NCBI RefSeq assembly: GCF_012163145.1
Contig: NZ_JAAVTX010000001.1
Coordinates: 558,001-622,000, forward strand
DNA: 64,000 nt
Origin: Falsiroseomonas frigidaquae
GTDB taxonomy: Bacteria; Pseudomonadota; Alphaproteobacteria; Acetobacterales; Acetobacteraceae
Direction of reading: 5' to 3'
The notes beneath the pieces were generated by a model that worked only from the letters and a program-made list of their open reading frames with translations, was not told the DNA's origin and did not search any database. Position 1 is the first letter of the stretch. The number at the start of each line of letters is the position of its first letter. Both the position numbers and the translations under genes were made by a program. Of the stretch, positions 40,832 to 59,672 are shown one piece after another.

Positions 40832-41770
40832 ATGAAGCTGCCCAGCCACAGCCGCTACGCACCCAGCGCCATCCCCACCCGCCCCACCTATCGCTGGCCG
40901 AATGGCGCGAGCCTGGCCGTGGTGGTCTGCAACAACATCGAGCATTTCGCCTATCGCGCCGGAATGGGCAGCGACAGCGCGCAGCCCAACGCACCGCAAT
41001 CCTTCCGCAACTACGCCTGGCGTGACTACGGCAACCGCGTCGGCCTGTGGAACATGCTGGAGATGCTGGACGAGCTGCAGATTCCCAGCGCCCACAACGT
41101 CAACAGCGCCGCGCTGGACTACATGCCGGAGATCGCGGAAGCGCTGCGCAAGCGCGGCGACGAATTCATCGGCCACGGCCGCAGCAACGCCGAGCGCCAG
41201 GACACGATGTGGGAGGAGGATGAGCGCCGCCTGATCATCGAGACCCGCGACGCCATCACGCGTCATGCCGGCGTGGCGCCCACGGGCTGGCTCGGCCCCT
41301 ATCTCGCGCAGAGTCACGTCACCCTCGACCTGCTGCGGGAGGAAGGCTTTCGCTACATGATGGACCTGCCGGCGGATGACCAGCCGTTCTGGATGGCGAC
41401 GCGCGCCGGGCCGATCCTGTCCGTGCCCTATTCGATCGAGCTGAACGACAGCCCTGCAATGGTGTTCCGCCAGCACAGCGGCCGCGAATTCGCCGACATG
41501 ATCGTCGACCAGTTCGATGAGATGCTGGAGCAGTCGGCGCGAAGGCCGCTGGTGTGCAGCGTGGTGCTGCACACCTTCGTCGTCGGCCAACCCTTCCGCC
41601 TGCGCCCCCTGCGCGCCGCGCTGCGCCACATCCTGGGCCATCGCGACCGCATCTGGCTGTGCCGGCCGGGCGAGCTGGCGGCCTATGCCGCCGGGCTGCC
41701 GCGCGGCGTGGTGCCGGGCTCGGAGATGCTGGACTCCGAGATGCCGGGTCCAGAGATGCTGGGCGGCTAG
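40832..41770 (+). CDS. Polysaccharide deacetylase family protein (PuuE-like)
   Basis: A 312-residue NodB-fold hydrolase of the kind used on allantoin, peptidoglycan-like or amide substrates. YRWPNGASLAVVVCNNIEHF, YAWRDYGNRVGLWNMLEMLDE and EFIGHGRSNAERQ fit the family's allantoinase/PuuE branch, where the metal site is often altered. The C-terminus has a short repeat, GSEMLDSEMPGPEMLGG. It follows the DUF4189 gene by 58 bases and converges on the exporter cluster, overlapping it by three bases. Substrate unknown. Confidence 0.88.
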   Translation: MKLPSHSRYAPSAIPTRPTYRWPNGASLAVVVCNNIEHFAYRAGMGSDSAQPNAPQSFRNYAWRDYGNRVGLWNMLEMLDELQIPSAHNVNSAALDYMPEIAEALRKRGDEFIGHGRSNAERQDTMWEEDERRLIIETRDAITRHAGVAPTGWLGPYLAQSHVTLDLLREEGFRYMMDLPADDQPFWMATRAGPILSVPYSIELNDSPAMVFRQHSGREFADMIVDQFDEMLEQSARRPLVCSVVLHTFVVGQPFRLRPLRAALRHILGHRDRIWLCRPGELAAYAAGLPRGVVPGSEMLDSEMPGPEMLGG

Positions 41771-44643
41771 GCCGCCCGCAGCTCCGCCCCGCCATCCAAG
41801 ATGCCGCGCGCCACCAGCGCGTCGAAGCTGCCGGAATGGGCGACCTTGCCGCGCTCGATCACCAGGATGCGGTCGGCGCCGCGGATCGTCTCCAGCCGGT
41901 GCGCGATGACGATGCGCGTGCAGGTCAGCGATGCCAGGGTCCGCGTGGTGACCGCCTGCGTCGCAGGGTCCAGCGCGCTGGTCGCCTCGTCCAGGATCAG
42001 CACATCCGGCTTGTTCACCAACGCGCGCGCCAGCAGCAGGCGCTGCACCTGGCCGCCCGAGAGCACATGCGCCGCATCGGCGATCGGGGTGCGCAGGCCG
42101 AGCGGCATGGCGCGCACGTCATCGGCGATGGCCGCCGCGGCCAGTGCCTGCCAGATCTGCGCCTCCGTCGCCTCGCTGAAGCCGCGCAGCACGTCCAGCA
42201 AAGCGCCGGGCGGCAGCTGCGCGCCCTGCAGCACCGTGCCGATGCGCCGCCGCAGCAGGCCGAGGTCGAGCGAGACCAGATCCTGCCGGTCGAATGTCAC
42301 GCTGCCGAAGCGGGCGCGTTCCAGCCCCAGCAGCAGCCGCACCAGCGTGGATTTGCCACAGCCGGACCGCCCGACGATGGCAACGAACTCGCCCGGCTCG
42401 ATCGACAGGTTCAGGCCGGAGAACAGCGGCGTATCGGCACCCTCATAGCCGAAGGCGACATTGGTCATGGCGATGCGGCCGGTCAGCCGGCCCGGATCGA
42501 TGCGCCCGGCCGTCGGTTCCGGCTGCGCCTGCAGCAGCGGCGCGGCGTAGCTGCGCATCGCATGCAGCGGGTAGAAGCCGGTGAAGGCCTGGCCCATGCC
42601 GTTGGCCGCGCCATTGGCGATCATGAAGGCCATCAGGAAGCCGACCACCGCGGCATTGTCGGGCGCGGCGCCGGACATGAACAGCAGGAACAGCAGCCCG
42701 ACGCCGAAGAAGGACAGGAAGGCGGCGGCGGAGGCCAGCCAGGTGTCGATATGCTCCTCCACCAGCTTGGTGCGGCGCATGCCGATGAAGCGTTCCGCCC
42801 AGGCGCCCAGCAGCCGGTGTTCCACGCCGGCCAGCCGCAGCTTGGTGATGCCGCCCACCGCCTCGATCGCCAGGCTATCCGCCTGCCCCGAAAGCTGCTG
42901 CCCGGTCTGCTGCACGCGGGATTTCAGGATGCCGCCGACCACCGCGATGCCGAGCTGCACCGCCAGGATGCCCAGCGCCACCAGCGCCGCGATGGCGTGG
43001 TACATGAACAGCATGGCCATGGAGGTGGCCAGCGCCGCGCCATAGCCCAGCATGGAAAGCCGGAAGCCCTGCGCGCCGAGCGGCAGGGACAGCGCCACGT
43101 TCAGCCGGGACGATATCTCGGATGGCGTGAATTTGCGCAGCACCGGCATCGGCAGCCGCAGCAGCCGGTCCCACAGACCCGCATGCAGCGGCGCTTCCGC
43201 CGTGGCCGTCAGCCGGTGCTTGGCGATGTCGCCCGCCATCTGCACCACGAAATTGGCCGCGCCGACGCAGGCCAGCGCGATGCCCAGCTCCACCAGGCCC
43301 ATCCGGTTGCCGCCCGGAATCAGCGACCCGGTGGCGAAGGACATGGCGATCGGCATGCCAAGCCCGAGGAAGGCACCGAGCAGCGCCGCGCCCAGCGCCA
43401 GACCGCGGTCGCCGCGATTGGGCAGCACGAAGCGGCCGAGATCGGCCACCGTCAGCTGCTGGTCCGACAGCGGCTCGATCATCGTCCAGGCGCGCAGCGC
43501 CAGGCGCTCGGCCAGCGCCGCGGTCATCGGCTGCGCGGCGGTACCGAAGCCCTGCAGCAGGTAGCCGCCCTTGCGCGGCAGCAGCGCCACCGGCTCGCCA
43601 TCATCCAGATGGCCCAGCAGCGGGCCGAGGTCGCGCTGCCACCATTCCGCCGGCAGCGCCACGGGCCGCAGCCGCAGGCCGGAGGCGCGGGCGATCTCGT
43701 CCATGGTCGGCGGGGTGTCGATGTCCTGCTCCCGCAGCCGGGTCGGGCGCTGGATGCGCGGGCGCATGCGGGCCGCCTTCGCCACCGCGACCATCGCCTG
43801 GAACAGCGGCTCCGCCGGCCCGGCTTCCACCGGCTTGGCGGCCAGTTGCGGCGCCGGCGCGTGCAGCAGCGCGGCGGCCAGTTCCGTGGTGCGCTGCGCG
43901 CCTTCCGCATCATGCTGGGCGCGCTGGCCCAGCCGGCCGCTTTCGTCGATCTCGGCCAGGCTGCGCAGCCCCGGCAGCATGGCGACGCAGGCATCGGTGA
44001 AGGCGGTGATACCCTCCACCGCCTCCGCCAGCAGGGAAGGTGGCGGCGCGCTGAGCACCAGCGCATCCAGCTCCGTGCCGCCGATCAGCCAGGCCTCCGG
44101 CGGCAAGGGCAGCAGGCCGCCCACCGGCTCCAGCCCGAGCAGCATGCCGCAGCCCGGCGGCAGTTCCAGCCACACACCCTCCCCGCGCGCCGTGGCGGAT
44201 TGGCCCTCGGCGAGGTGCAGGCGGCGGCCCGGGCGGGCGACCTTGTCGATGTTGGAGGGGCGCCACAGCCGCGCGCCCATGCCACCGGCCAGCGCCGAGG
44301 CCCAGAGCTGCATCGCATCGACCAGCGCCTGGTGCCCGCCCAGCGCCGAGAGCTGTGGCAGCCGCCGCAGCCGGGCCCCGGCGGCCGGGCGCAGCACCAG
44401 GCATTCCAGATCCGGCCCGTGGCCGACCACCAGGGTGCCGGCGCGGATGCGGCCGATGAACATGTGGGGACCGGGCGGCGCCTGGCCGGGTTCCCAATCA
44501 TCCAGCCCGCCCTGGGCCGCGAAGATGTCGGCTTCGCCGGCCTCCAGCAGCCAGAAGGCACCGGGTTCCCCCAGGCTGCGCGGCGGCTGCTGGAAATGCG
44601 GGTCGGGCTGGCCGGGCAGGTCGGGCGGTACGAAGGCGTCCAT
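41767..44643 (-). CDS. NHLM-type exporter, permease/ATPase subunit without peptidase
   Basis: A 958-residue ABC transporter half. About 400 N-terminal residues form a regulatory part typical of the second NHLM exporter subunit (WLLEAGEADIFA, FIGRIRAGTLVVGHGPD). Then come six helices (about 400-680) and an ATPase domain with Walker A GRSGCGKSTLV (near 756), signature LSGGQVQRLLLARAL (near 861) and Walker B VLILDEATSALD (near 884). It starts one base after the C39-ABC gene and is last in the cluster. It is expected to pair with that subunit in the inner membrane. Confidence 0.9.
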   Translation of the reverse strand: MDAFVPPDLPGQPDPHFQQPPRSLGEPGAFWLLEAGEADIFAAQGGLDDWEPGQAPPGPHMFIGRIRAGTLVVGHGPDLECLVLRPAAGARLRRLPQLSALGGHQALVDAMQLWASALAGGMGARLWRPSNIDKVARPGRRLHLAEGQSATARGEGVWLELPPGCGMLLGLEPVGGLLPLPPEAWLIGGTELDALVLSAPPPSLLAEAVEGITAFTDACVAMLPGLRSLAEIDESGRLGQRAQHDAEGAQRTTELAAALLHAPAPQLAAKPVEAGPAEPLFQAMVAVAKAARMRPRIQRPTRLREQDIDTPPTMDEIARASGLRLRPVALPAEWWQRDLGPLLGHLDDGEPVALLPRKGGYLLQGFGTAAQPMTAALAERLALRAWTMIEPLSDQQLTVADLGRFVLPNRGDRGLALGAALLGAFLGLGMPIAMSFATGSLIPGGNRMGLVELGIALACVGAANFVVQMAGDIAKHRLTATAEAPLHAGLWDRLLRLPMPVLRKFTPSEISSRLNVALSLPLGAQGFRLSMLGYGAALATSMAMLFMYHAIAALVALGILAVQLGIAVVGGILKSRVQQTGQQLSGQADSLAIEAVGGITKLRLAGVEHRLLGAWAERFIGMRRTKLVEEHIDTWLASAAAFLSFFGVGLLFLLFMSGAAPDNAAVVGFLMAFMIANGAANGMGQAFTGFYPLHAMRSYAAPLLQAQPEPTAGRIDPGRLTGRIAMTNVAFGYEGADTPLFSGLNLSIEPGEFVAIVGRSGCGKSTLVRLLLGLERARFGSVTFDRQDLVSLDLGLLRRRIGTVLQGAQLPPGALLDVLRGFSEATEAQIWQALAAAAIADDVRAMPLGLRTPIADAAHVLSGGQVQRLLLARALVNKPDVLILDEATSALDPATQAVTTRTLASLTCTRIVIAHRLETIRGADRILVIERGKVAHSGSFDALVARGILDGGAELRAA

Positions 44644-44644
44644 C

Positions 44645-46795
44645 TCAGGCCCCTACTTCAGCAACGGACGGCAGCATCAGCTTGGCGAAGGCGCTGCGTC
44701 GCGACGCAAGCTCCGCCGGCGGGCCCATCTCGATGATGGCGCCGCGTTCCATCACCACCACGCGGTCGCAATCGCGCAGCGGCGCCAGGCGGTGGGCCAC
44801 CACCAGCATGGTGGCGCCACGACGCCGGATATTGGACAGCAGCTCCGCCTCGGTCTGGTCGTCCAGCGCCGCGGTCGCCTCGTCGAACAGCAGGATGCGC
44901 GGGTCCTGCACCAGGGCGCGGGCAATCTCGATACGCGCGCGCTGGCCGCCGGACAGGTTGGTGCCGCCGCCGGAGATCGGGAAGGCGTAGCCCTCGCGCC
45001 GCTCCAGGATGAAGTCGTGGATGGCGGCATCGCGCGCCGCGGCGTGCAGGCGTTCCTCGGAGACCGTCGGATCCCACAATGCGATGTTGTCGCGCACCGT
45101 GCCGGTGAACAGCATCGCCGTCTGGTCCACCACCTGCACGCTCTGCCGCAGCACGGCGCGCGGAATCTCCCGCAACGGCTTGCCATCCAGCAACACCTGG
45201 CCCGACCACGGCTCATGCAGCCCGGCGGCGAGCAGCGCCAGGGTGGACTTGCCGGAGCCGGAGGCACCGACGATGCCGACCCGCTCGCCCGGCTCCACCA
45301 CCAGCGACACGCCGGAGATCAGCGGCGCGGCGCGGCGCGAATGGCCGAAGGTGACGTCGCGCAGCTCGATCCGTCCATCCAGGCGGCGGATCAGCCGTGG
45401 CGCCGCCGGGGGATTGGTGAACTCCTCCGCCAGCGGGTGTTGCAGCGTGTCGTCCAGCAGGCGCAGGCTGGCACCGGCTTCCTGCATGCGCGGGCCGAGC
45501 TGCACCAGGCGGCCGACCGGGGACAGGAACACCGCCAGCAGGAACTGGAAGGCGACCAGCGCGCCGATCGACATCTGCCCGCCGATCACCAGCCCGCCGC
45601 CGATCGCCAGCGACGTGGCCGCGGCGACGGCGGTGGCCAGCCCCGGCAGGTGCCGCAGCGCGGTGCGGCCCAGCATCAGCGATTGCCGCAGGTTCAGCGC
45701 GCGGGCGCGGCGCGCCATCAGCCGGTCGAACAGCAGCGCCTCGCTGCCGCTGGCGCGGTAGCTCTCGATCATGCGCAGGCCCTGCTTCGCCTCCGCCGCC
45801 TCCATCGCCTGTTCGTTCATCAGGCGCTGCTGGTCCTCCTTCAGCCGTGCCGAGAGGAAGGCCAGCGCCACCGCCAGCGCCGCGGCCGCGGCCAGCGCCA
45901 CCAGGCCCAGCCGCAGGTCGAACAGCAGCAGCACCGCCAGGTAGATCGCCGCCATGATCAGCGCCAGCATGGTGCCGCCGATCTCGCCGGCGACGATGCC
46001 GGCGACGCGGTCGTTCAGCATGACGCGGTCGGCGATGCTGGCCGGGCCGCGCTGGCCGTAGAAGGACATCGGCAGGCGCAGCACGCGTTCCATGAAGCCG
46101 ATGCCACCGGCCACGGCGACGCGGGTTTCCAGATTGTGCTGCAGCGTCTTCTGCATCCAGGTGCACAGCGCCGCGAAGGCGCCGACGCCCAGCATCGCCA
46201 GCAGCATCGGCCACAGCCAGGCGATGACGCCGGCGGACAGGATGCGGTCCATGAAGACCTGGCGGAAGGACGGGCCGAGCACGCCCGGCAGCGCCAGGAT
46301 CACGCTGATGCCGATCGCCAGCAGCACGGCGCGGCGGCAGCCACGCAGCCGGTCCGCCAGGCCACGCATCGCGCTCGGCGGCGATCCGCCCTTCTTGAAG
46401 GCGGGGCCGGGCTTGATCATCAGCACGATGCCGCTGAACTGGCGGCGCAGCTCGCGGTCATCGACGCGGCGGCGACCACGCGCCGGGTCGTTGAGTTGCC
46501 AGCTGCCGCCGCGCTTGCCCTCCAGCACCAGGAAGTGGTCCATGCCCCAATGCAGGATCACCGGGCCTTCGACGGTGGCCAGCGCCTCCGGCTCGCCGCG
46601 CACGGCGCGCACCTCGAAGCCCATCTCGCGCGCTGCCGCCGCGATGTGCTGTGCCTTGCTGCCGTCGCGGGAGACGCCGCAGCGGGCGCGCAGGTCCTCC
46701 AGCGTCAGCCACAGCCCGTGATGGGCGGCGATGATGCCGAGCGCGGCGGCGCCGCATTCCGCGGCCTCGATCTGCAGGATGGTGGGGGTGCGCAT
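44645..46795 (-). CDS. NHLM-type exporter, C39 peptidase/permease/ATPase subunit
   Basis: A 716-residue PCAT-type transporter that cuts double-glycine leaders and exports the rest. The N-terminal C39 domain keeps all key residues: Gln8, Cys14 (QIEAAEC), His87 (GMDHFLV) and Asp103 (QLNDPARG). Six helices follow, then an ATPase with Walker A GASGSGKSTLA (near 508), signature LSGGQRARIEIARAL and Walker B ILLFDEATAALD. The ATG at 46795 lies five bases after the adaptor's stop; the frame is open upstream, but the extra part is antisense-like Arg repeat. Its likely substrates are the two large double-glycine proteins in this cluster. Confidence 0.94.
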   Translation of the reverse strand: MRTPTILQIEAAECGAAALGIIAAHHGLWLTLEDLRARCGVSRDGSKAQHIAAAAREMGFEVRAVRGEPEALATVEGPVILHWGMDHFLVLEGKRGGSWQLNDPARGRRRVDDRELRRQFSGIVLMIKPGPAFKKGGSPPSAMRGLADRLRGCRRAVLLAIGISVILALPGVLGPSFRQVFMDRILSAGVIAWLWPMLLAMLGVGAFAALCTWMQKTLQHNLETRVAVAGGIGFMERVLRLPMSFYGQRGPASIADRVMLNDRVAGIVAGEIGGTMLALIMAAIYLAVLLLFDLRLGLVALAAAAALAVALAFLSARLKEDQQRLMNEQAMEAAEAKQGLRMIESYRASGSEALLFDRLMARRARALNLRQSLMLGRTALRHLPGLATAVAAATSLAIGGGLVIGGQMSIGALVAFQFLLAVFLSPVGRLVQLGPRMQEAGASLRLLDDTLQHPLAEEFTNPPAAPRLIRRLDGRIELRDVTFGHSRRAAPLISGVSLVVEPGERVGIVGASGSGKSTLALLAAGLHEPWSGQVLLDGKPLREIPRAVLRQSVQVVDQTAMLFTGTVRDNIALWDPTVSEERLHAAARDAAIHDFILERREGYAFPISGGGTNLSGGQRARIEIARALVQDPRILLFDEATAALDDQTEAELLSNIRRRGATMLVVAHRLAPLRDCDRVVVMERGAIIEMGPPAELASRRSAFAKLMLPSVAEVGA

Positions 46796-46799
46796 GGCC

Positions 46800-48212
46800 C
46801 TAGCGCGCCACGGCGATTGTTGCAGGCGCCGCCGCCGCAACCGTGCCAGGCGGCGCCGCCGCCAGGGTGCCGGGCGGCGCCGCCGCCAGGGTGCCGGGCG
46901 GCGCCGCCGCCACGCGAACATCCTCGCCCAGCCAGCGTTGCAGCGCGGGCAGGCCGAGCGAGATCATCCGCACGTTGCGGACGGTGGCCTGCATCGCCAC
47001 CGGCGTGCCGCCCTCGATGGTGAAGGGCGGGCCGTTGCCGGCGGACCACAGCAGCCCACCCTGCGCGTTGCGCTCCATCACGATGTTCACCTCGAACAGC
47101 GTGCGCTGGTTGCGCTGGAATTCCGTCACCAGCGCGTCGTTCTGCAGCGTCCGCAGCATGCCGGCGGAGGAGGCCGGCGTATCCGCCACGCGCACCACCC
47201 GGCCGCGCAGATAGCCGTATTCCTGCTGCGGCGCGGTGGCCGGCGACAGTTCCACGGACATGCCCGGCTGCAGCTTCTTGCCGTCCTGCGCGCCGACATA
47301 GATCAGCCCGACCAGGCCGCCCGCCTCGGCGCCCGGCACGTCGCTGCGGACCAGGGTCAGCAGCGGGCCGCCGCGGTTGACCACCTGGCCGGCATTGGCC
47401 TTCGCCTCCACCACCCGCCCGTCGAAGGGCGACCGGATGGCGCCCATGCGGCGGATGCGTTCGTTCAGCGTGGTCACCTGGCGTTCCGCCTGGGCGACGC
47501 GCTGGTCCGCCGTCATCAGGTCCTTCTCGCGCTGGGTCTGCCGCATCACGGCGTCGAGCCCCAGCACACGGCGGTCGTTGCGGACCGTCTCGATCTGGTC
47601 GCGGATGCCGAACAGCTCGACCTGCGCACCGATCGCGCGATCGCGGGTTGCCAGCGAGCGGGAGGCGAGGTCGCGCACCACCTGCTCGCGTTCCGTCATC
47701 AGCCGCAGCCGTTCCTGCGCCGAGCGCAGGCTCTGCGACAGGCCCTCGTCGCGCGCCACGCGCCAGGCGCGGTCCGCTTCCGTGTCGCGTTCCTGGAAGC
47801 GCAGCACTTCCGCCCGTGCCGCCTGCGCGTCGCGCAGCTCGCCTTCCGCCGCCGTCAGCAGAAGGCGTTGTTCCGCCTGGTCCACCACCGCGACCACGCT
47901 GCCGGCGGTGACGGTATCGCCCGGCGCCACCAGCAATTCCACGACGCGGCCTTCGGTGTCGGAGACGATATCGGTCAGCCCGCCGGCCGAGAGCAGGATG
48001 CCCTGGCCGCCGATCTTCACCGGCACGTCGGTGGTCGCCGACCAGGTGAGCAGGCCGACAACCAGCGCCGCCAGACCCCACCAGAGCACCATCAGCGGCG
48101 GCTGCACCACCTCCAGCGCATCCTCGACCACGGTGACGGAGGTTGCCGAGGCGACCGCCTCGGCGCGGAAGGTCGGTGGACTGGCGGGTGCGCTGCTGGA
48201 GGGGGCGCTCAT
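46800..48212 (-). CDS. NHLM-type HlyD-family periplasmic adaptor
   Basis: A 470-residue membrane-fusion protein. It has a cytoplasmic N-tail, one helix (residues 38-58, PPLMVLWWGLAALVVGLLTW), a lipoyl half-motif (GRVVELLVAPGDTVTAGSVVAVVDQ), a long coiled coil (about 110-270), and the second half (IRSPFDGRVVEAKANAGQVVNRGGPLLTLV). It links the ABC pair to the periplasm. The C-terminus ends in repeats of AAAPPGTL. Its first 26 or so residues are echoed by a remnant at 57552-57713. Confidence 0.92.
   Translation of the reverse strand: MSAPSSSAPASPPTFRAEAVASATSVTVVEDALEVVQPPLMVLWWGLAALVVGLLTWSATTDVPVKIGGQGILLSAGGLTDIVSDTEGRVVELLVAPGDTVTAGSVVAVVDQAEQRLLLTAAEGELRDAQAARAEVLRFQERDTEADRAWRVARDEGLSQSLRSAQERLRLMTEREQVVRDLASRSLATRDRAIGAQVELFGIRDQIETVRNDRRVLGLDAVMRQTQREKDLMTADQRVAQAERQVTTLNERIRRMGAIRSPFDGRVVEAKANAGQVVNRGGPLLTLVRSDVPGAEAGGLVGLIYVGAQDGKKLQPGMSVELSPATAPQQEYGYLRGRVVRVADTPASSAGMLRTLQNDALVTEFQRNQRTLFEVNIVMERNAQGGLLWSAGNGPPFTIEGGTPVAMQATVRNVRMISLGLPALQRWLGEDVRVAAAPPGTLAAAPPGTLAAAPPGTVAAAAPATIAVAR
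46842..46908 (-). repeat. 24-bp in-frame repeats at the 3' end of the adaptor gene
   Basis: Two and a half to three copies of a 24-base unit encode AAPPGTLA near the C-terminus of the HlyD-like adaptor. The last copy is diverged to PPGTVAAAA. The unit stays in frame, so the repeat number can vary without breaking the protein. Confidence 0.8.
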
Positions 48213-48251
48213 GCAGATAGTTCCCTCTGGGACTGGAAACGGAAAGCCGTG

Positions 48252-48273
48252 CCCGCGCCCGGTCGGGCGCGGG
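48252..48273 (-). terminator. GC hairpin between the large leader gene and the adaptor gene
   Basis: Arms CCCGCGCCCG and CGGGCGCGGG flank two bases, giving about nine pairs around a four-base loop, 40 bases before the adaptor ATG on the transcript. There is no T-tract. It may attenuate read-through so that the secreted protein is made in excess of its exporter. A weaker hairpin sits in the equivalent place of the second copy (about 57760-57776). Confidence 0.45.
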
Positions 48274-50586: not shown

Positions 50587-50587
50587 G

Positions 50588-50923: not shown

Positions 50924-52962
50924 CAAACCGTCTCCTTCTCGCGGGTGTAGATGACTGACGCCGGCTCCGTGCCGCGCCAGTGCAAGGCCACCATGGTGAT
51001 GTCATCCGCCTGCGGCTCCGTCTCCGCAAAGACCTCGACGCTGGTTGCCACAGCCTCGACCAGCATCGCCGGGTCGGCGTTGCGCGGATCGCCGACGATG
51101 GCGGCCAGCCGTGCATCGCCGAACATCGCATCGCCCGGGCCCATCGCCTCCGTCACGCCGTCGGTGAACATCAGCAGATGGTCACCGGCTTCCAGCACCA
51201 GGGTCTGGTCGGCGAAGTCGATGCCATCCATCACGCCCAGCGCGATGCCGACCTCGACCGGCAACTCGCCTTCCCGGCCATCCTCGCAGCGACGGCGCGG
51301 CGCGTTATGGCCGGCATTGGCGTAGGTCAGCACGCCGGTGCGGCAATCCAGCACGGCGACGATCGCGGTGGCGAACATCAGCGTCGGATTATCCGCCGCC
51401 AGCGTGTCGTTGGCCTGGGCCAGCGCCTCCGCCGGCGTGGCGCCGCGGCTGATGGCGGCGCGCAGCAGGCTGCGTGCCATGGCGATGAAGATGGCGGCGC
51501 CGACGCCCTTGCCGGAGGCATCGCCGATCATCAGCACCAGGCGGTGCTCGTCCAGCATCACCAGGTCGCAGAAATCGCCGCCGACTTCCTTCGCCGGCAC
51601 CATCGCGGCGTGCAGGCGGAAGCAGGGGCGTTCCGGGAAGGTGGTGGGCAGCGAGGAAAGCTGCAGCCGCCGTGCGACGTCCAGTTCCTCCCGCATCCGG
51701 TTGAACTGCAGGCGTTCGTCCAGCGCCTGGCGCACCAGGGCCAGGTCACGGGTGCGTTCCGCCAGCAGTTCCGCCATGGCACGGTGCTGCTGCACCACAT
51801 GGCCGGAAAGTCGCGCGAAGGCCGGGCCGAGGGTTGCGCCCTCGCCTTCCAGCAGGCCAAGGATCTCACGCCGCGCCGGGCCTTCCAGCACGGCGGTCAG
51901 GCGGGCAATCTCCTGCCCGATCAGCGCGCGCTCGCGCAGCCCGGCGAGGCGGTTGCCGGTCTGCAGCCGGTCCAGCGTCAGGGTGTTGCTGCGCAGCGCC
52001 TCCAGCGCCTCGCCGATCGCGCCGACCTCATCGCCACGCCGGCCGATGGCGGCGGAGGCGAAGATGTCGCCGCCCGCCACCGCCTGCAGCGCGCGCGCCA
52101 GTTCGGTCAACGGGTCCAGCGCATCGCGGATCACGCCGTAAAGCGCCCGGCAGGTGACGGCGGCGGCCACCACCAGCAGGCCGAAGGCCACCAGCAGCAG
52201 CAGCCGGCGGGACTGGGTTTCCGCCGTGGCATCGGCCAGGACGAGGATCTCGCCGACCACCGCCCCCGACGAATTCTGCGAGGGCGTCGCCTCCAGCCGG
52301 AACAGCCGGCCGTTCATCTGCACCGTCTCGCCCGCCTGCAAAGCCCCGGCGTCTTCGCGCAAGGCCGGCGTACTGGCGAACAGGGGTGCGCCGCTACGGT
52401 TGCGCATCAGCAGGTCGGCACCGAGATGCCGCGCGATCTGCCCCAGCGCCGCTTCCGCCGGAACGCCGAGCGACAGCAATTCGCCCTGTGGCAGCCGCAG
52501 GCTGGCCACCAGCAGCACCTCGCCCTCGGCGGATTCGAAGCCGGCGCTGACCTGGCCCGGCACCAGGTCGCGCTGCAAGGCGGCGGCGCCGCTGGCCAGC
52601 GGGTCGGCCGCGGCGGGCGCCGCTGCCAGAAGCTGGCCCTGCCCGCCGACCATGTCCATGCGCCCGGCCATGCCCAGGCCCTCACGCAAGGCGGCGAGCC
52701 GCTGCCGCAGCGCCGATTCGTCATTGTCGGCACGGGCCGCGAGCAGCGCCGCGTCCGTCGCGGTGGCGCGGAGCGCGGCGACCAGCGGGGCCGCGGCGCG
52801 GTCCACCGCTTCGCGCAGCGTGGCGGATTGCAGGCTGGCGCGCAGCGTTGCCGCGCGCTCCTCGCCATCGCGCAGCACCAGCCAGGCCGGCAGCGCGACG
52901 GAAGCGGCGACCAGCAGCGTGGCCAGCGCGAACAGCAGCAGAATGCGGGATCGGAGGAGCAT
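50923..52962 (-). CDS. Membrane sensor SpoIIE-type PP2C phosphatase
   Basis: A 679-residue protein with two membrane helices (about residues 5-27 and 255-275), a periplasmic sensor between them and a HAMP-like and coiled-coil linker. The cytoplasmic PP2C/SpoIIE phosphatase domain has VGGDFCDLVMLDEHRLVLMIGDASGKG, metal-binding Asp residues, and TYANAGHNAPRR, then LLMFTDGVTEA. It most likely dephosphorylates the adjacent STAS protein in response to a periplasmic signal. It starts three bases after the binding-protein gene. Confidence 0.93.
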   Translation of the reverse strand: MLLRSRILLLFALATLLVAASVALPAWLVLRDGEERAATLRASLQSATLREAVDRAAAPLVAALRATATDAALLAARADNDESALRQRLAALREGLGMAGRMDMVGGQGQLLAAAPAAADPLASGAAALQRDLVPGQVSAGFESAEGEVLLVASLRLPQGELLSLGVPAEAALGQIARHLGADLLMRNRSGAPLFASTPALREDAGALQAGETVQMNGRLFRLEATPSQNSSGAVVGEILVLADATAETQSRRLLLLVAFGLLVVAAAVTCRALYGVIRDALDPLTELARALQAVAGGDIFASAAIGRRGDEVGAIGEALEALRSNTLTLDRLQTGNRLAGLRERALIGQEIARLTAVLEGPARREILGLLEGEGATLGPAFARLSGHVVQQHRAMAELLAERTRDLALVRQALDERLQFNRMREELDVARRLQLSSLPTTFPERPCFRLHAAMVPAKEVGGDFCDLVMLDEHRLVLMIGDASGKGVGAAIFIAMARSLLRAAISRGATPAEALAQANDTLAADNPTLMFATAIVAVLDCRTGVLTYANAGHNAPRRRCEDGREGELPVEVGIALGVMDGIDFADQTLVLEAGDHLLMFTDGVTEAMGPGDAMFGDARLAAIVGDPRNADPAMLVEAVATSVEVFAETEPQADDITMVALHWRGTEPASVIYTREKETV

Positions 52963-52965
52963 GGC

Positions 52966-53961
52966 TCAGACGGTCTCCGCAACGCGCAGCAGCCCGACGG
53001 GCGGGAAGATCTGCAGGCGCCGCGCGCTTTCCATGCGGATCAGGAAGGACAGGCGCGTCAGCGTCTCCACCGGGATGGTTTCCGGGGCGCGACCGCCGCG
53101 CAGGATCTGCTCCGCCTTGAAGCCCGTGAAGGCGCCGACGCTGTAGTAGCGGCTGACCAGCCCGGCCAGCCCCTCGGCGAACTGCACGAAGCGCTCGCTG
53201 GCGGAGAAGCAGGGCAGCCCCTCATCCAGCGCGGCGCGGGTCAACACGGCGCGATGGTCGTTCAGGAAAGTGTCGGGCGGAATGTACAACCATTCCGCGC
53301 CCGCGCGCCGCGCCTGCGCCACCACATCCGGGATCGATTCCGGCATCGGCTTGCGCGCCGCATCCAGCGCCACCGGCAGTTCCACCACGCCATCGCCCAG
53401 CAGCGCGCGCATCTGCGCCACCACGGACAGCGAGTTGCGCTCATTCGGGTTGAAGGTGGTGGCGACGCGGCGGAAGGCGCGGTAGCGCGCCATGGCCCGC
53501 ATCTGCACCTCGACCGGCGCGATGTATTCGGTGCCGGTCACCGCGCGGCCGGGTTCCGCACGGGACCGCACGATGCGGTTGCCGACGGGATCGGTGACGA
53601 TGTTGAACACCACCGGCACGCCGCTGATGTGCCGCACCGGGTCCGGCGCATCCCACGGGCCGAGCGCCGCGATGGCGAGCGAGGTGCCCCAGACATAGAC
53701 CAGGTCCGGCTTCACCTCCCGCACCTCCGCCACCAGATCCGGCACGCGGCGCAGATCCTGGGCGATGTCGCGCACGATCAGTTCCACCGGGATGCGGCGT
53801 GCCGCGAAATGGTCCCGGAACCCGTCGCAGGCTTCCTCCCAGCCGCGGAACAGCAGCATCATGATGCGGAAAGGCCGTTGCTGGGCCGTGGCAGGGGCCG
53901 CCAGCAGCAGCGCCGGTGCTGCAAGAACCGACGCGGCGAGAAGATGTCGACGATGCAGCAT
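52966..53961 (-). CDS. Periplasmic ABC-type substrate-binding protein (ABC_sub_bind family)
   Basis: A 331-residue exported protein with signal peptide MLHRRHLLAASVLAAPALLLAAPATA and the TrpX-like ABC_sub_bind fold. Visible blocks are VAEVREVKPDLVYVWGTSLA, IPVVFNI-type VPVVFNIVTDPVGN and IPPDTFLNDHRAVLTRAALDEGLPCFS. No ABC permease or ATPase gene accompanies it. It overlaps the HAMP-MFS fusion gene by ATGA, so it may be a sensory ligand-binding partner rather than part of an importer. Confidence 0.88.
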   Translation of the reverse strand: MLHRRHLLAASVLAAPALLLAAPATAQQRPFRIMMLLFRGWEEACDGFRDHFAARRIPVELIVRDIAQDLRRVPDLVAEVREVKPDLVYVWGTSLAIAALGPWDAPDPVRHISGVPVVFNIVTDPVGNRIVRSRAEPGRAVTGTEYIAPVEVQMRAMARYRAFRRVATTFNPNERNSLSVVAQMRALLGDGVVELPVALDAARKPMPESIPDVVAQARRAGAEWLYIPPDTFLNDHRAVLTRAALDEGLPCFSASERFVQFAEGLAGLVSRYYSVGAFTGFKAEQILRGGRAPETIPVETLTRLSFLIRMESARRLQIFPPVGLLRVAETV

Positions 53962-55988
53962 CACGCCGCCTCCCTCTGCCGAAGTCGCTGGAACGCCAGC
54001 GACAGCGCGTAGCCGATGGCGGTGGCGAGCGAGAGCACGCCCAGCGCCAGCATGGTTTCCTGCCCGGTGCCGAGCGCCAGCAGCGCCGCCGCCGCGGGCG
54101 GGCCGATGACGCTGCCGAAGCGCTCCGCCAGGCGCAGGAAGCTGAGCATGGCGGCCGAATTCGGCGCGCCGCGCATCAGGCTCAGCCCCGGGATGATCGC
54201 CAGCATCGGCGCCGCGGCCAGGCCCTGCGCCAGGCCGGTGCCGATGATCGCCAGCGGCAGCGCCGTCTCGCGGTCCAGCCACATCGGCAGCAGCAGCGCC
54301 ACGCCGTTCAGCGCGCCGGCGAAGGCGATGACCAGGCCGCCGCGCCCGGTGCGGTCGGTCAGCCAGGCGCCGACCAGGATCGCCGGCAGCATGCAAAGCC
54401 CATACAGCATCACGTTGCGGCCGATCGCGGCCTGGCTCAGCCCCAGCTCGCGCAGCTCCAGCGGCGCGAGGAAGAAGATGAAGCCGCCGAGCAGCACCTT
54501 GGCCGGGATCGCCGCGAACAGCACCAGCAAGGCGAAGCGCGGCTCGGCGAAGGCGGCGCGGGCGCTGTGCCACAGCCCCATCTGCTTCTGCTCGCTGGCA
54601 CCGCCGGCGGCGAAGGCACGCCACACCAGCAGCGCGGTGCCGGCCACCAGCAGCATGGACAGCACGAAGGTCAGGCGGAAGCCGACGCGGTCGGCCATCA
54701 CCGCGCCGATGGCGGTGCCGCAGACGGCGCCTGTCATCACCGCCGCGGTGAAGCCACCCAGGCTGCGCGCCACGCGGCCCTGCGGCGCTTCCTGCGCCAG
54801 GTGCACCTGGCAGGCGATGGTGACGATGGCATAGCCGGCGCCGCAGACGGCGCGGGCGATGGCGAAGGTGGTGAGGTCCGTCGCCAGCGCGGCGCCGACA
54901 TGGCCGATGGCCGCCGGCAGCAGCCCGATCAGCAGCGCATTGCGCGGCCCGTGGCGTGCCACCACGGCGCCGCCGAAGGGCGTGAACAGCGCCACCGCCG
55001 CCACGAAAGCCACGATCGGCAGCGCCGCGCCCATGATGCCACCCTGCCCGCCCGCAAGCTCCAGCGCGAAGATCGGGTTGAAGGAGGTGGAGAGCTGCTC
55101 GGCGAAGACGAACAGGAACAGCGGCAGCCGGGCCGAGGCCGCGCCCGCGCCCAGCCCTTCCTGCACGGCGGCGACGCCGAAGCGCAGCCGTTCGCGCACG
55201 CCGTCCAGCACTGCGCCGGCCCGCTGCGCGGCGCCGGACTGCGCCGCCATCCAGCACAGCCGGTCCCAGCGGTCGTTCATGCGGCGCACCAGCACATTCA
55301 GGTGCCGCGCCACGCGCCCGGCTTCCGCGCCCATGTCGCCCGGCGCGCGCAGCGTCCAGTCGCCGCCAGCCAGCCGCGACTGCAGGCGCAGCACCATGCC
55401 GATCGGCGCGGCCACGGTGCGGGACAGCACGAAGCGCAGGAATTCCGTGGTGGCCAGCAGCACCACCAGCAGCACGATCAACACGTCCCAGCGCATGTCA
55501 TCCAGCGCGGTATCGAGCCGTGCGCGGGCAATGCCCACATGCAGCCAGCCCGCGACCCGCCCGGATTCCAGCACCGGCAGCGCCGCATCGTAGCTGCCGC
55601 CGAGCAGGCGCATCAGCGCACCGCGCTCCGGCGCCACGGTGCCCGCCGGAAGGCCGGCGAAGTCACCCGAGGCATCGCCGGCACTGGCGATGCGCTGCCC
55701 CGCCGCATCGGTCAGCAGCACATAGGCAAGCCCCTGCCGTGCGGCGAGCAGGCTGGCCAGGTATTCATCCAGCCCCGACAGACCGTTGAACGGCACGCCG
55801 AGATCCAGCGCGCGCTGCAGCGTGCGCGCGCCGATGCTGCCGACGATGGTGGCCTCCCGCTCCAGCTCCGGCCGCAGCTCCGTCTCGAAGCTCCGCAGCG
55901 CGGTGTGGGAGACGAAGCCGACGGCGAGCGTCAGCAGCAGCACGGCGACCGCGACGACGCGGCCCACCAGGCGACGATCAGGCGTCAT
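53961..55988 (-). CDS. Fusion of a periplasmic sensor and HAMP domain with an MFS transporter
   Basis: A 675-residue protein with an unusual layout. Helix 1 (about 10-30) and a periplasmic domain (about 31-168) come first. Helix 2 (about 169-192, VLIVLLVVLLATTEFLRFVL) and a HAMP segment follow (PIGMVLRLQSRLAGGDWTLRAPGDMGAEAGRVARHLNVLV). A complete MFS permease follows (about 280-670; GGAVVARHGPRNALLIGLLP is the loop 2-3 motif). Receptors normally place a kinase or phosphatase after HAMP; here a transporter takes that place. It overlaps both neighbours by ATGA. No frameshift is seen, so the fusion is real in this sequence. Its substrate and whether it transports or signals are unknown. Confidence 0.88.
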   Translation of the reverse strand: MTPDRRLVGRVVAVAVLLLTLAVGFVSHTALRSFETELRPELEREATIVGSIGARTLQRALDLGVPFNGLSGLDEYLASLLAARQGLAYVLLTDAAGQRIASAGDASGDFAGLPAGTVAPERGALMRLLGGSYDAALPVLESGRVAGWLHVGIARARLDTALDDMRWDVLIVLLVVLLATTEFLRFVLSRTVAAPIGMVLRLQSRLAGGDWTLRAPGDMGAEAGRVARHLNVLVRRMNDRWDRLCWMAAQSGAAQRAGAVLDGVRERLRFGVAAVQEGLGAGAASARLPLFLFVFAEQLSTSFNPIFALELAGGQGGIMGAALPIVAFVAAVALFTPFGGAVVARHGPRNALLIGLLPAAIGHVGAALATDLTTFAIARAVCGAGYAIVTIACQVHLAQEAPQGRVARSLGGFTAAVMTGAVCGTAIGAVMADRVGFRLTFVLSMLLVAGTALLVWRAFAAGGASEQKQMGLWHSARAAFAEPRFALLVLFAAIPAKVLLGGFIFFLAPLELRELGLSQAAIGRNVMLYGLCMLPAILVGAWLTDRTGRGGLVIAFAGALNGVALLLPMWLDRETALPLAIIGTGLAQGLAAAPMLAIIPGLSLMRGAPNSAAMLSFLRLAERFGSVIGPPAAAALLALGTGQETMLALGVLSLATAIGYALSLAFQRLRQREAA

Positions 55989-56764
55989 GGCGCAATGGCC
56001 TCCATCGGTTGCGGAACACTCTCCGGCATTTGCGCCGCGATCTGTTCCAGCTGGGCCTCGGCCTCGGTCAGTACGGTATCGGTATCGGCGATCGCCACCT
56101 GCAGCCCCGCGGCGAGCGCGGCCGGCGCGGCGCCGGGCTGCATCGCCTCCTGCATCGCGGCGAACCAGCGGCGTGTATGGCGCGTGACCAGGTGCAGGCC
56201 GAGCGCGCCGGCCGGAATGGCGATGGCCAGCGCCAGCAGCGTCGCCTGCATCATGGCGAGCAGCGCGGCGGCCAGCCGTTCATCCACCGCGGAGCGTTCG
56301 TAGCGCAGCAGGATGGCGCCCTCGGGCTGGCCGAATCCGTTGATGATCGGCGCGCCGATGCCGTAGCGGGGGCCATCGCGGAAGCGCCAGGACTCGGCCT
56401 GGCCCTGCGGGGCCAGGTGGTCCCGCGGCAGCGTGCCGCCCATGTTCTGCCGGTCGGTGTCGAACAGCACGACATGGTCGGCATCCGCGATGGTCAGCCC
56501 GGCGATCAGCGGCTCCGCGGCACGCGAGCGTTCCAGCAGCGCCTGCGCGCCGGGCACGCCGGCCAGACGCACGCCCAGTGCCAGGCTGTTCTCCACCGTG
56601 CTGCCCAGCTCGCCGGCCAGGATCTCCAGCACGCGCGCCTGCTGTTCCAGCAGCATGCGTTCGAACTTCAGGTAGTTCAGCCCCGCCGCCAGGCCGCAGC
56701 CCAGCAGCAGCATGGTCGCCAGCACGCCGGTCAGGCGCGTGGCGAAGGAAAGCTCCCCCCTCAT
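55985..56764 (-). CDS. Two-helix membrane sensor protein without an output domain
   Basis: A 259-residue protein with a membrane helix near 12-32 (TGVLATMLLLGCGLAAGLNYL), a periplasmic dCache- or sCache-like domain (TVENSLALGVRLAGVPGAQALL, TIADADHVVLFDTD) and a second helix near 185-205. A short cytoplasmic helical tail ends the protein. It has no HAMP, kinase, phosphatase or cyclase domain. The sensor resembles that of the adjoining HAMP-MFS protein, so the two may act as a pair. ATGA overlaps connect it to both neighbours. Confidence 0.8.
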   Translation of the reverse strand: MRGELSFATRLTGVLATMLLLGCGLAAGLNYLKFERMLLEQQARVLEILAGELGSTVENSLALGVRLAGVPGAQALLERSRAAEPLIAGLTIADADHVVLFDTDRQNMGGTLPRDHLAPQGQAESWRFRDGPRYGIGAPIINGFGQPEGAILLRYERSAVDERLAAALLAMMQATLLALAIAIPAGALGLHLVTRHTRRWFAAMQEAMQPGAAPAALAAGLQVAIADTDTVLTEAEAQLEQIAAQMPESVPQPMEAIAP

Positions 56765-57555
56765 GCCGCCTGCCGCTGCGGCGTGCAGGTCTCCCCGTGA
56801 AGCGGCATGAAGGCGTCTCCCAGAACCTGCGCGTAGTCGCGCGCACGCACGATCGGAATGGGCAGGGCGGCGAAATCCGCGGCGCTGGGAAAGCGGAAAT
56901 AGGCGCCCCCCGCGGGCTGCGGCGTGCCAGCCGGCTGGCTGCCGCGCGCCAGCGTGGTGGCGGCCGTCGCGGCAATGGCGACACCACCGCGATACAGCCC
57001 CGCCGTGTGCCACATCAGCGACCGCGTGGCATCGAAGGGCACCCGCGCCACGCCGAGGATCGGTCCGGTATCGATGCCGCGATCCACCATGTGCACGGTG
57101 CAGCCCAGTTCCCGTTCGCCGCGCAGCACCTGCCAGAAGGGCGCGAACAGGCCGCGATAGCCCGGCAGCGCGCCGGGATGGACGTTGACGATGCCGCGCG
57201 GCACCGCATCAATCACGCGCTGCGGAAAGATCAGGCTGAAGCGCGCGGAGATGACGATGTCCGGCTTGAAGGCCAGCAGCGTTGCGGCCCCGCCATCGGC
57301 GCGCATGTCATGCAGCGGGACCCATTCGTCCGTGTGCGGCAGGCCGGGGGTCGGCGGCTCCATCATCGCCAGCGTGTCGATGGCGACATCGCGTTCCAGC
57401 AGCTTCATCAGCCGCAGCGCCGGAACGTCGTCCTCCGCCTGGCGCGTCTTGACGCTGCAGAAGAAGCGCAGCTCCGCGAATCCCAGCCGGGCGGCGAGAA
57501 TACGGGCCGCAAGAAGGCCGTGGATGTCCTTCTTGACGCAGATGGCGATCCTCAT
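56761..57555 (-). CDS. Formyltransferase family protein
   Basis: A 264-residue protein with the formyl_trans_N fold that moves formyl groups from 10-formyltetrahydrofolate. The catalytic Asn-His-Asp set is visible as Asn124 and His126 (IVNVHPGALPGYRG) and Asp162 (DRGIDTGPIL). It lacks the C-terminal domain of methionyl-tRNA formyltransferase and more resembles enzymes that formylate amino-sugars. It sits where an adaptor gene would be expected, just after the adaptor remnant, and starts by an ATGA overlap with it. Whether it modifies the exported protein or a surface sugar is unknown. Confidence 0.88.
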   Translation of the reverse strand: MRIAICVKKDIHGLLAARILAARLGFAELRFFCSVKTRQAEDDVPALRLMKLLERDVAIDTLAMMEPPTPGLPHTDEWVPLHDMRADGGAATLLAFKPDIVISARFSLIFPQRVIDAVPRGIVNVHPGALPGYRGLFAPFWQVLRGERELGCTVHMVDRGIDTGPILGVARVPFDATRSLMWHTAGLYRGGVAIAATAATTLARGSQPAGTPQPAGGAYFRFPSAADFAALPIPIVRARDYAQVLGDAFMPLHGETCTPQRQAA

Positions 57556-57713
57556 GCCGCGCTCCCGTGGATCTGCGGCGTGGCGGCCAGGTTGTCGACC
57601 ACGATGCGCGACGCGGGCCTTCGGTCGCCACCGCGGATGACGGTCGCCAAGGCAACCGCCCCGCCACGGAATGACGGTGGGCTGCCGGGTGCGCGACTGG
57701 CAAGTGCGCTCAT
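57552..57713 (-). pseudogene. Remnant of the HlyD-adaptor gene (53 codons)
   Basis: The reading frame MSALASRAPGSPPSFRGGAV matches the first residues of the adaptor at 46800-48212 (MSAPSSSAPASPPTFRAEAV), and about 26 residues align before similarity ends. It lies downstream of leader copy 2 at the same distance as the adaptor lies from copy 1, with the same ribosome-site context (GAGGGAACC before the ATG). The rest is unrelated and stops in an ATGA overlap with the formyltransferase. It may still be translated and so couple the leader gene to the formyltransferase. Confidence 0.8.
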
Positions 57714-59672
57714 GCAGGTGGTTCCCTCTGGCCGGGGTCTGAGAACGGGAGGCCGGGCCGCGCGCCGGGCGGGCGCGACACGAAGCTGGGCAGGCCGGGG
57801 TCCGGCAGCGGGCGGCGTGGCGCGCCAACGGCGCCACATCGTCCCGCGCCGGGCCCCGGAGATCAGAACCTGAACGCCTTCTTGATGGAGTTGCCCGCGC
57901 TGGTCGCACCCTTGCTGATGGCGTTGCCGGCGCTGGCCGCCGCGGAGGCCGCGGCATCCGCAACCGCCCTGGCCTCTGCCGCCGCCCGCTCCACAGCCGC
58001 CTGGGCCGCTGCCGCCGCTTCCGCCGCCGCCCGCTCCGCCGCGGCCTGCGCCGCTGCCGCAGCTGCCGCCGCTTCGGCTGCCGCCCGTTCCGCCGCGGCC
58101 TGCGCCTCGGCCGCTGCACGTTCCGCCGCCGCGCGGGCTTCCGCCGCCGCCCTCTCGGCCGCAGCGCGGGCCTCCGCCTCGGCTCGCTCGGCTGCCGCAC
58201 GGGCTTCCGCCTCGGCCCGCTCGGTCGCCGCCTTCAGCTCGGCCGCCGCCTTCTCCGCCGCCTTCTCGGCCGCCGCCTTCACCTCGGCCGCAACCTTCTC
58301 AGCCGCCGCCTGCGCCTCGGCCGCAGCCTTCTCGGCCGCCGCCTTCACCTCGGCCGCTGCCTTCTCGGCCGCAGCCTGCGCCTCGGCCGCCGCCTTCTCG
58401 GCTGCCGCCTCGATCTGCTCGGCGGTGGCCTTCACCGCGTCGGTCGCGCTGTCGAGCAGCTTCCCGGCGGTGGCTTCGGCGCTGTCCAGAACCTTCTCGG
58501 CGGCGGCGAGCGTGGCCGCAGCCTTGCTCGCGGCCGCCTCCAGGCCATCGGCCACCGCATCGGCGGCGCGGGCCTCCGCCTTCTCGATCTGCGCCTTGAT
58601 GGTGCCGGCGATGTTGCCGAAGCCGCGACCCACCTTGCCCGCCGCGTTGGCGGCTTCCTTCGCCTCCTTCTCGGCGATGTCGCGCGCCTTGTCCGCGGCC
58701 TGCTCGGCCTTCTCGGCGGCTTCCCGCGCCTCGGCCACCGCCTCGCGCGCTTCGGCGGCGGCCTGTTCCGCCGCCACCAGCGCCTGCGCCTCGGCCTGCA
58801 CCGCAGCCTCGCTGGCCGCGTCGCCAACCGCGTTCACATCGACCGTGCCGCTGACGCCAACATTCACGCCACCGAGCAGCAGCGACACCTCGCCGCCCAC
58901 GCCGATCGTGATCTCGCCATCCTTGTAGCCGGCCTCGACTTCCGCACCGACGCCCGCCGAGCCCGGATCCACATAGCCGACCGACGCGGTGCCGGAGCCT
59001 TCCTCGCCGCCGATCGTCGCTTCCACCGTCACCGAGGCATAGGCCCCGGCCATGATCTCGGCCTCGGTCTGCACGCCCTCCGTGCCGATCGAGACGGTAC
59101 CCTCGACGCCGGCCTTCACGCCCACTTCCGTGGTGGTGGTGGTGGTCGCGGTGGTGCCGTTGCCGAGGTCGTGCTCGGTCGCGACCTCCACCGTCACGCT
59201 GCCACCAATGCCCGCCGAGGCGGTGTAGCCGATGCCGGTGACGCCGACTTCCACGCCGACCTGCGCGCCCGCGCCGGCTTCCAGCGTCACGGTGGTGGTG
59301 ACGTTGCCGTCCGTCACGCTGCCGGTCGCGTAGACGCCAGCGCCGACGCCCGCACCGGCACCCGCGCCGGTATGCGTCACTTCGTATTCGGCGCCCGCCG
59401 CCCAGCCCGCGCCGGCTTCCAGCGTCACGCCGTTCACCACGATGCTGGTCGAGACCGACTCTCCCGTCGAGGCGCCACCCGACACCACGGTCGGGCTGGA
59501 GATGCTGCCGCCGAACTCGGCTTCATCCTCCTCGCCACCACCGGTCGGCGCTGCGTTGGTCGAACCGCTGCCGCCGACGACGGAGGCGAGGGAGCCCTCA
59601 TCAAGATCGACCCATGCGTTGTTGTCAGGAGGGCTCATAGGATGGCTCCGTGGGTCATCTGTTCGGTGCAAT
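57630..59672 (-). repeat. Duplicated segment, copy B (leader gene, spacer, adaptor remnant)
   Basis: Partner of the segment at 48130-49898, longer mainly because of extra coiled-coil repeat units. It carries the truncated adaptor frame. The spacer is recognisably similar (TTCCCTCTG and GCGGGCGGCG blocks) but diverged. Confidence 0.8.
57863..59638 (-). CDS. Large double-glycine-leader protein, copy 2 (591 aa)
   Basis: Paralogue of the 502-residue protein at 48356. The leader ([15 protein letters not shown], then SLASVVGG) is identical, and the beta-rich region to residue 270 or so differs by only a handful of conservative changes (for example YTASAGIGG for YSASAGVGG). The helical region is expanded with extra Ala/Glu/Arg units (RAEAEARAAAERA, QAAAERAAAE), which explains the extra length. 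The C-terminal tail differs only at the end (KKAFRF). No cysteine is seen. Like copy 1 it should be cut after residue 23 by the C39 peptidase. It heads the chain of sensor and regulatory genes. Confidence 0.9.
   Translation of the reverse strand: MSPPDNNAWVDLDEGSLASVVGGSGSTNAAPTGGGEEDEAEFGGSISSPTVVSGGASTGESVSTSIVVNGVTLEAGAGWAAGAEYEVTHTGAGAGAGVGAGVYATGSVTDGNVTTTVTLEAGAGAQVGVEVGVTGIGYTASAGIGGSVTVEVATEHDLGNGTTATTTTTTEVGVKAGVEGTVSIGTEGVQTEAEIMAGAYASVTVEATIGGEEGSGTASVGYVDPGSAGVGAEVEAGYKDGEITIGVGGEVSLLLGGVNVGVSGTVDVNAVGDAASEAAVQAEAQALVAAEQAAAEAREAVAEAREAAEKAEQAADKARDIAEKEAKEAANAAGKVGRGFGNIAGTIKAQIEKAEARAADAVADGLEAAASKAAATLAAAEKVLDSAEATAGKLLDSATDAVKATAEQIEAAAEKAAAEAQAAAEKAAAEVKAAAEKAAAEAQAAAEKVAAEVKAAAEKAAEKAAAELKAATERAEAEARAAAERAEAEARAAAERAAAEARAAAERAAAEAQAAAERAAAEAAAAAAAAQAAAERAAAEAAAAAQAAVERAAAEARAVADAAASAAASAGNAISKGATSAGNSIKKAFRF

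Follow-up and report, generated by a model that had tools for sequence, protein, structure and literature searches.

A Falsiroseomonas frigidaquae gene island in which large double-glycine proteins are paired with an NHLM-type exporter

What is carried by an NHLM-type exporter whose neighbouring genes encode double-glycine proteins with mature parts of 479 and 568 residues? This question is raised by a minus-strand gene block of Falsiroseomonas frigidaquae, analysed here within a window of 64,000 nucleotides (nt; bases 558001–622000 of contig C9, in a genome of 6.08 Mb) whose positions are used throughout. From high to low coordinates the block comprises a cargo gene (copy B), a remnant of hlyD, a run of seven genes, a second cargo gene (copy A), hlyD, a gene for a C39 peptidase-ABC protein (C39-ABC) and a gene for a second ABC protein (ABC2). 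We read the block as a dedicated secretion island, the cargo of which would be cut by the C39 peptidase and exported as a surface or matrix protein under the control of external signals, and assign a probability of roughly 0.6 to this reading.

Copy A (48356..49864) encodes 502 residues and copy B (57863..59638) 591, both, like all features of the block, on the minus strand. The two proteins open with an identical leader of 23 residues that ends in Gly-Gly, as an earlier, sequence-only reading of the window had claimed. The mature parts amount to 479 residues and 45.2 kDa in copy A (C-terminus KKAFKL) and 568 residues and 53.8 kDa in copy B (C-terminus KKAFRF), with no Cys in either. Across the cargo family, leaders of 22–35 residues precede Cys-free mature parts of 343–568 residues, and leader positions L12, L17, V20, G22 and G23 were invariant in 15 aligned rows. 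All 23 mature cargos that were tabulated were free of Cys and had isoelectric points of 4.1–6.0. The mature protein begins with a beta-type domain of about 250 residues rich in Gly, Thr and Val, in which hydrophobicity alternates (z 5.2–8.2 in 16 of 16 family members), and continues in a tail of 98–320 residues, where 14 of 16 rows have their peak of residue identity at a lag of 11, the exceptions being the two proteins of locus L055. This coil carries 33-base-pair tandem repeats (11-residue units; 48457..48627 in copy A, Tandem Repeats Finder score 293, with an 11-residue autocorrelation) and its length varies between copies. Conserved ends (C-terminus for example NSIKKAFKL or GRKIRRLFR) enclose a variable middle. 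No NCBIfam or Pfam family scored above its curated cut-off with either cargo, the coil giving weak apolipoprotein-like matches, and neither cargo matched the RTX repeat family PF00353.

A strict leader motif, defined after the cargos had been seen, was found in 24 of 765 coding-like open reading frames (ORFs) of at least 150 codons from 62 loci, namely in 23 cargo genes and one STAS-like gene. This leaves 1 of the 742 other ORFs with the motif, and the leader is commoner in cargo genes than by chance. Of the 23 motif-bearing cargos, 13 come from the window itself or from loci retrieved for their similarity to the cargo, and ten (L052–L055, L138–L141 and L146) come from other loci. The strict motif is lacking in four further cargo genes (L046, L049, L051 and L123).

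Cargo A is separated by 290 nt from the RsbW gene of the preceding run and by 143 nt from hlyD, which is followed after 4 nt by the C39-ABC gene and, after 1 nt more, by ABC2. The HlyD-type membrane fusion protein (46800..48212, 470 residues) scored 239.7 bits against TIGR03794, above the cut-off of 156.2, and is of the NHLM type. The C39 peptidase-permease-ATPase (44645..46795, 716 residues; PF03412, 106.2 bits) carries Cys14, His87 and Asp103 at what we take to be the catalytic positions of the C39 motif, and these residues are kept in 37, 38 and 39 of 39 aligned rows, respectively. ABC2 (41767..44643, 958 residues) is a second NHLM permease-ATPase without a peptidase, and ATPase motifs are present in the exporter. 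The three genes of what had been called a complete C39/ABC/HlyD exporter were all found, but its completeness did not hold, as no outer-membrane channel gene lies within the block; three OEP-type proteins are encoded elsewhere in the genome, one of them on the same contig. The window HlyD ends in a PPGTLAAA repeat tail (46800–46900) that is missing from the HlyD of L004, a contig of a Falsiroseomonas metagenome-assembled genome in the same genus group (G305; L004 and G305:C187 are one contig and were counted once).

The two cargo genes arose by duplication. In blastn, 49896–48464 aligned with 59670–58247 at 95% and 48625–48141 with 58132–57642 at 77%, so that the duplicated unit spans 32 nt before the start codon to the first ~72 nt of hlyD, left behind copy B as a remnant at approximately 57642..57713. 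The 57863 gene consequently duplicates the 48356 gene together with ~72 nt of hlyD. The thirteen frames of the sequence-only reading were confirmed as frames and are to be counted as twelve genes and one hlyD remnant, and its two large proteins are cargo-sized as described, but a duplicate pair and not two independent proteins. Copy B is absent from the Falsiroseomonas island L004. The beta domains of A and B differ at 6 of 280 residues and at 12 of 198 fourfold sites, the latter fewer than in the downstream part, and gene conversion might explain this low divergence.

That cargo and exporter go together is the firm result. Cargo was present in 8 of 16 genomes of the genus sample, with 14 genes in total, and the same eight genomes carry an HlyD at least 76% identical. 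Two of the other eight have an HlyD at 48–49% and six have none, and a profile search for cargo in these eight genomes, which lack this exporter type, found none. The company of a C39 exporter that the sequence-only reading had expected for cargo homologues is borne out by this distribution (8 of 8 genomes with the exporter type, 0 of 8 without). The cargo gene lies directly before hlyD in all eight islands, the 14 genus genes being made up of these eight, copy B and five elsewhere; the island cargo of L038 was placed by other searches, as the tblastn listing did not show it. Four of the five orphan copies (L039–L042) occupy one shared locus in four genus genomes, and the fifth (L037, in a fifth genome) lies at another place. 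Cargo-bearing stretches of the orphans were 77–89% identical and their flanks 83–92%, a signal of faster cargo evolution that was weak and was not used.

Among 299 genomes of the family sample, three matched the cargo profile: two of the genus and G005, from another genus of the family, in which two tandem cargo relatives (L055) precede an NHLM-like hlyD and a C39-ABC gene (791.3 bits against TIGR03796, under the cut-off). The same cassette of cargo, hlyD, C39-ABC and ABC2 was found on a plasmid of Azospirillum oryzae, with a cargo match of 40% over 248 residues (E 1e-22) and a C39-ABC 68% identical to that of the window. This brings the total to 17 cargo genes in ten genomes or records. Ten of the genes immediately precede hlyD, an eleventh stands in tandem upstream of one of these ten, and the rest are copy B and the five orphans. 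In the plasmid search, the Azospirillum relative escaped tblastn with the window cargo as sole query, so a negative search with a single sequence may understate how widely the cargo is spread. No cargo relative was among 92 pattern matches in viral contigs, and a search of 21 genomes of the class with alignment A3, run without a positive control, found nothing.

In a tree of 39 C39-ABC proteins, 21 fell on one side of a branch with support 100/100 (20 rows with support 100/99 before Azospirillum was added; L136, a fragment, was dropped from both trees and the long-branched L125 and L135 from the 39-protein tree). Nine of the 21 have the window type of cargo, six an RTX-repeat cargo, four a helical cargo and two none that was seen. 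The three kinds are unrelated to each other, and all 19 cargos are Cys-free, have a double-glycine leader, lie beside hlyD and have mature parts of 18.6–45.2 kDa. The gap between cargo and hlyD is 26–205 nt, or 782 nt in L052 with a second double-glycine ORF between, and four cargos are divergent. The cargo kinds could not be placed on the exporter tree with fewer changes than were counted (three, against a shuffled mean of 13.1 and with as low a value in 0 of 200 shuffles), although close relatives also group together for other reasons. A single change suffices for the RTX cargos, for the helical cargos and for a set of five ~100-residue precursors, and the window cargo takes two. The other 18 rows comprise eight with precursors of ~80–120 residues, L055, which stands apart on a long branch, and nine without a cargo assignment. 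The ~100-residue precursors (P0002, L056, L124, L129 and L102:7021-7425) were labelled Nif11 by eye, which profile scans did not confirm; the only match to Nif11 came from a different L102 ORF (PF07862, 25.0 bits over 23.8; TIGR03798, 26.4 below 32.3).

The genome of the window itself holds an RTX pair on contig C15 (L051), where an RTX-repeat double-glycine protein (L051:9046-10137), with the leader MSTKKPHVIDIKTLEIVVGG if the chosen start is right, is encoded divergently to a second NHLM exporter. Five similar loci occur in the family (L049, L052, L053, L054 and L123). The repeats were confirmed by Pfam (PF00353) in L049, L051 and L052 and called from visible repeats in L053, L054 and L123. 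Cargo genes are often paired, and the two double-glycine ORFs of L052 lie at 2923-4254 and 4258-5076. Helical double-glycine proteins with mature parts of 170–182 residues lie beside hlyD in L138–L141, from two other alphaproteobacterial families, and the two that were scanned had no good Pfam match. The HlyD proteins of the four helical loci and of the genome's own RTX locus are above the TIGR03794 cut-off; the C39-ABC proteins of L051 and L053 are above that of TIGR03796 and that of helical locus L138 is just under it. Taken together, NHLM exporters probably have a separate branch that cuts and exports double-glycine proteins of about 19–54 kDa, RTX-repeat proteins included, which would run against the published size rule for active C39 transporters. 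The exporter of the block is read here as a member of this large-protein branch.

The seven genes between the cargo copies overlap or lie at most 3 nt apart. The first encodes a formyltransferase-like protein (56761..57555, 264 residues; Formyl_trans_N PF00551, 77.8 bits; best PDB match the GDP-amino-sugar formyltransferase 5vys, 3e-14) that the sequence-only reading had not named. It is followed by a membrane sensor-like protein (55985..56764, 259 residues; weak sCache_3_2, below cut-off) present in all eight islands, an sCache_3-HAMP-MFS fusion (53961..55988, 675 residues; PF17203 38.7 and PF07690 98.2 bits, with HAMP PF00672 below cut-off at 18.5), an ABC-type substrate-binding protein (52966..53961; PF04392, 67 bits), a HAMP-SpoIIE phosphatase (50923..52962, 679 residues; PF07228, 163.7 bits), a STAS anti-sigma-antagonist-like protein (50588..50926, 112 residues; PF01740 and TIGR00377 above cut-off) and an RsbW-like HATPase_c_2 protein (50155..50607, 150 residues; PF13581, 61.1 bits). 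No sigma factor was recognised in the block. The fusion, in which an extracytoplasmic sensor is joined to a whole MFS transporter, is possibly a signal-gated transporter or a transporter-like receptor. In islands L045 and L046 the SpoIIE phosphatase is kept and STAS and RsbW are both lost.

These sensory and partner-switch genes are present as had been claimed, but form a cassette of their own. Among 336 further alphaproteobacterial genomes in the sample, 16 encode the sCache-HAMP-MFS protein. Of the 16 stretches retrieved around it (3.5–20 kb), 15 have a substrate-binding protein nearby, nine a SpoIIE protein matched through its phosphatase part and two more one matched through the sensor half only, and two have a formyltransferase. 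No NHLM HlyD was found in the 16 stretches, one of which (L100) shows two generic ABC matches, and the cassette is therefore separable from the exporter; in two of the genomes (G472 and G579) an NHLM HlyD lies on another contig. Upstream of the Azospirillum cassette a response regulator and an ATP-binding protein take the place of the partner switch. Partner switches of the SiaABCD or RsbU type consist of a HAMP-SpoIIE phosphatase, a STAS protein and an RsbW-like protein. The similarity of the window phosphatase to SiaA is weak (NCBIfam NF038263, 60.1 of 700 bits) and, unlike SiaABCD, the window switch is joined to Cache-HAMP-MFS and PF04392 proteins.

These observations suggest the following route. 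The cargo would be made with its 23-residue leader, to which the peptidase domain of C39-ABC would bind and which it would cut behind Gly-Gly. The unfolded, acidic, Cys-free protein would leave the cell N-terminus first, by way of HlyD, C39-ABC, ABC2 and a channel of the TolC type whose gene lies outside the block. Cleavage and export are proposed because of the C39 family and the leader. Outside the cell the protein may consist of a head (the beta-rich N-terminal domain), a stalk (the helix of 11-residue repeats, which varies in length) and an anchor (the conserved basic and aromatic C-terminus, which would leave last). A surface or matrix role is preferred because no toxin or enzyme family was matched, no ORF of 80 residues or more was noticed as a possible immunity gene, the repeat length varies and the ends are conserved. 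Production would follow an external signal sensed by the cassette of Cache, substrate-binding and SpoIIE proteins.

Several results weigh against the secretion-island reading. The NHLM assignment stood for HlyD, but both ABC subunits fall below their equivalog cut-offs, C39-ABC with 807.2 bits against 853.3 for TIGR03796 and ABC2 with 563.5 against 709.4 for TIGR03797, each still its best family; the C39-ABC proteins of two other islands, at 803.7 and 809.3 bits, are also under the cut-off. Five of the 14 genus cargo genes are remote from any exporter: the 20 kb retrieved around them contain none of the NHLM type, although the genomes concerned do possess one. No upstream motif common to island and orphan copies was seen by alignment. 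Clade members L048 and L050 have no cargo visible beside hlyD, STAS is missing from four of the eight islands and RsbW from two, and a PDB profile search with the cargo gave no relative, its only two matches having E values of 0.17 and 0.22. Published size limits point the same way. The secretion efficiency of the class II microcin MccV, an 88-residue cargo of CvaAB-TolC, falls at 116 residues (PMC10231218), to be set against 45–54 kDa here, and a review puts the apparent limit for transporters whose C39 domain is active at cargo of ~10 kDa and associates large cargo with C39-like domains and a signal at the C-terminus (PMC8277102).

The alternative that survives best, unlikely as it is, is a contact-dependent bacteriocin, a Gly/Ala-rich cargo that stays on the surface and kills neighbours like CdzC/CdzD of Caulobacter. 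The double-glycine leader and C39 exporter would suit it, as would two cargo copies in six of the eight genus genomes and a Gly content of 18–23% in the beta domain. A glycine zipper was nevertheless rejected as a feature of the cargo, GxxxG being no more frequent than in shuffles (z −1.7 to 1.7, 16 rows), and no immunity-like gene stood out among ORFs of 80 residues or more. The cargo is moreover single in G304 and G305, both drafts, and in one Azospirillum plasmid record, and copies A and B, with their near-identical beta domains, are duplicates rather than distinct partners.

Improbable as well is a final location of the cargo within the envelope of the producing cell, as an outer-membrane or periplasmic protein that the exporter delivers and that is neither released nor displayed. 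In its favour are the alternation of hydrophobicity, which extends over ~230 residues, and the F-x-F/L/I with which 12 of 16 rows end. The C-terminus has a basic character, however, and comes after a helical repeat, with the ending RLFR in four of 16 rows and KKKMKKW in Azospirillum; the long acidic coil is unlike a barrel, and no Sec-type signal was seen by eye.

That the exporter moves a modified peptide like other NHLM systems, with the large protein as a helper and the formyltransferase modifying the product, is very improbable. An NHLM HlyD above cut-off and the adjoining formyltransferase gene are in its favour. Against these stand the lack of Cys in the cargo and of any TIGR03793 or TIGR03798 match (nitrile-hydratase-like or Nif11 leader) for cargo A or B, as the sequence-only reading had it, although no search was aimed at small precursor ORFs in the island. 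A formyltransferase also accompanies the sensor cassette in L087 and L095, stretches without an NHLM HlyD, and none is annotated beside the Azospirillum cassette. The reported absence of lanthipeptide, YcaO and radical-SAM genes agrees with the Pfam matches of the 12 island genes, which include no lanthionine- or heterocycle-forming enzyme. Least credible is a chance leader motif on cytoplasmic proteins clustered for regulation only, which could appeal to the six of 14 genus cargo genes not adjacent to hlyD but fails on the rarity of the motif in other ORFs, the five invariant leader positions and the match of cargo and exporter by presence and absence.

Under the secretion-island reading the system can be placed among known ones. 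It is like the NHLM/NHLP systems (Haft, Basu and Mitchell 2010, PMC2887384) in its HlyD (TIGR03794), C39 peptidase-ABC, second ABC and double-glycine cleavage motif. The mean end position of leaders in those systems is residue 83 (NHLP) or 70 (N11P), and the cores are hypervariable and rich in Cys/Ser/Thr or Cys/Gly/Ser, with a mean length of 26 in one family. The cargo family described here differs in its short leader and long, Cys-free mature part, and the 479 and 568 residues of the window cargos do not make a short Cys/Ser/Thr-rich core. The available part of a Legionella paper names NHLP-type systems and shows no cargo of the window kind (PMC6959600), and a literature search that took in few subscription journals found no title or opening abstract on NHLM exporters with large double-glycine proteins. 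If the reading is right, 'NHLP bacteriocin export' annotations in such bacteria may name the wrong product.

With Cdz of Caulobacter (84–86 residues, extended glycine zippers, immunity protein; PMC5380434) the island shares type I secretion, a Gly-rich paired cargo and an alphaproteobacterial host, and differs in the missing zipper and in the immunity gene, none having been noticed at the ORF sizes given above. It resembles RTX secretion by HlyB/HlyD in its large cargo, and sister systems of the window exporter even carry RTX repeats; in HlyB, however, the C39-like domain is degenerate, and HlyA lacks a leader at its N-terminus (PMC8277102), whereas the window peptidase keeps its catalytic residues and the cargo leader is N-terminal. 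Should the large-protein branch work as proposed, the published C39 size rule would have a natural exception comprising three cargo families, RTX proteins perhaps with a cleavable N-terminal leader among them. The loci would supply cognate cargo–exporter pairs for testing what limits cargo size, and might provide a leader-cleaving export route for large unfolded proteins. MccV and CvaAB (PMC10231218) are matched in the C39-ABC, fusion protein and short double-glycine-type leader but not in the 45–54 kDa of the cargo or the two ABC subunits, and the island would represent a class of type I secretion in which a microcin-like cleavable leader is joined to cargo sizes nearer those of RTX systems.

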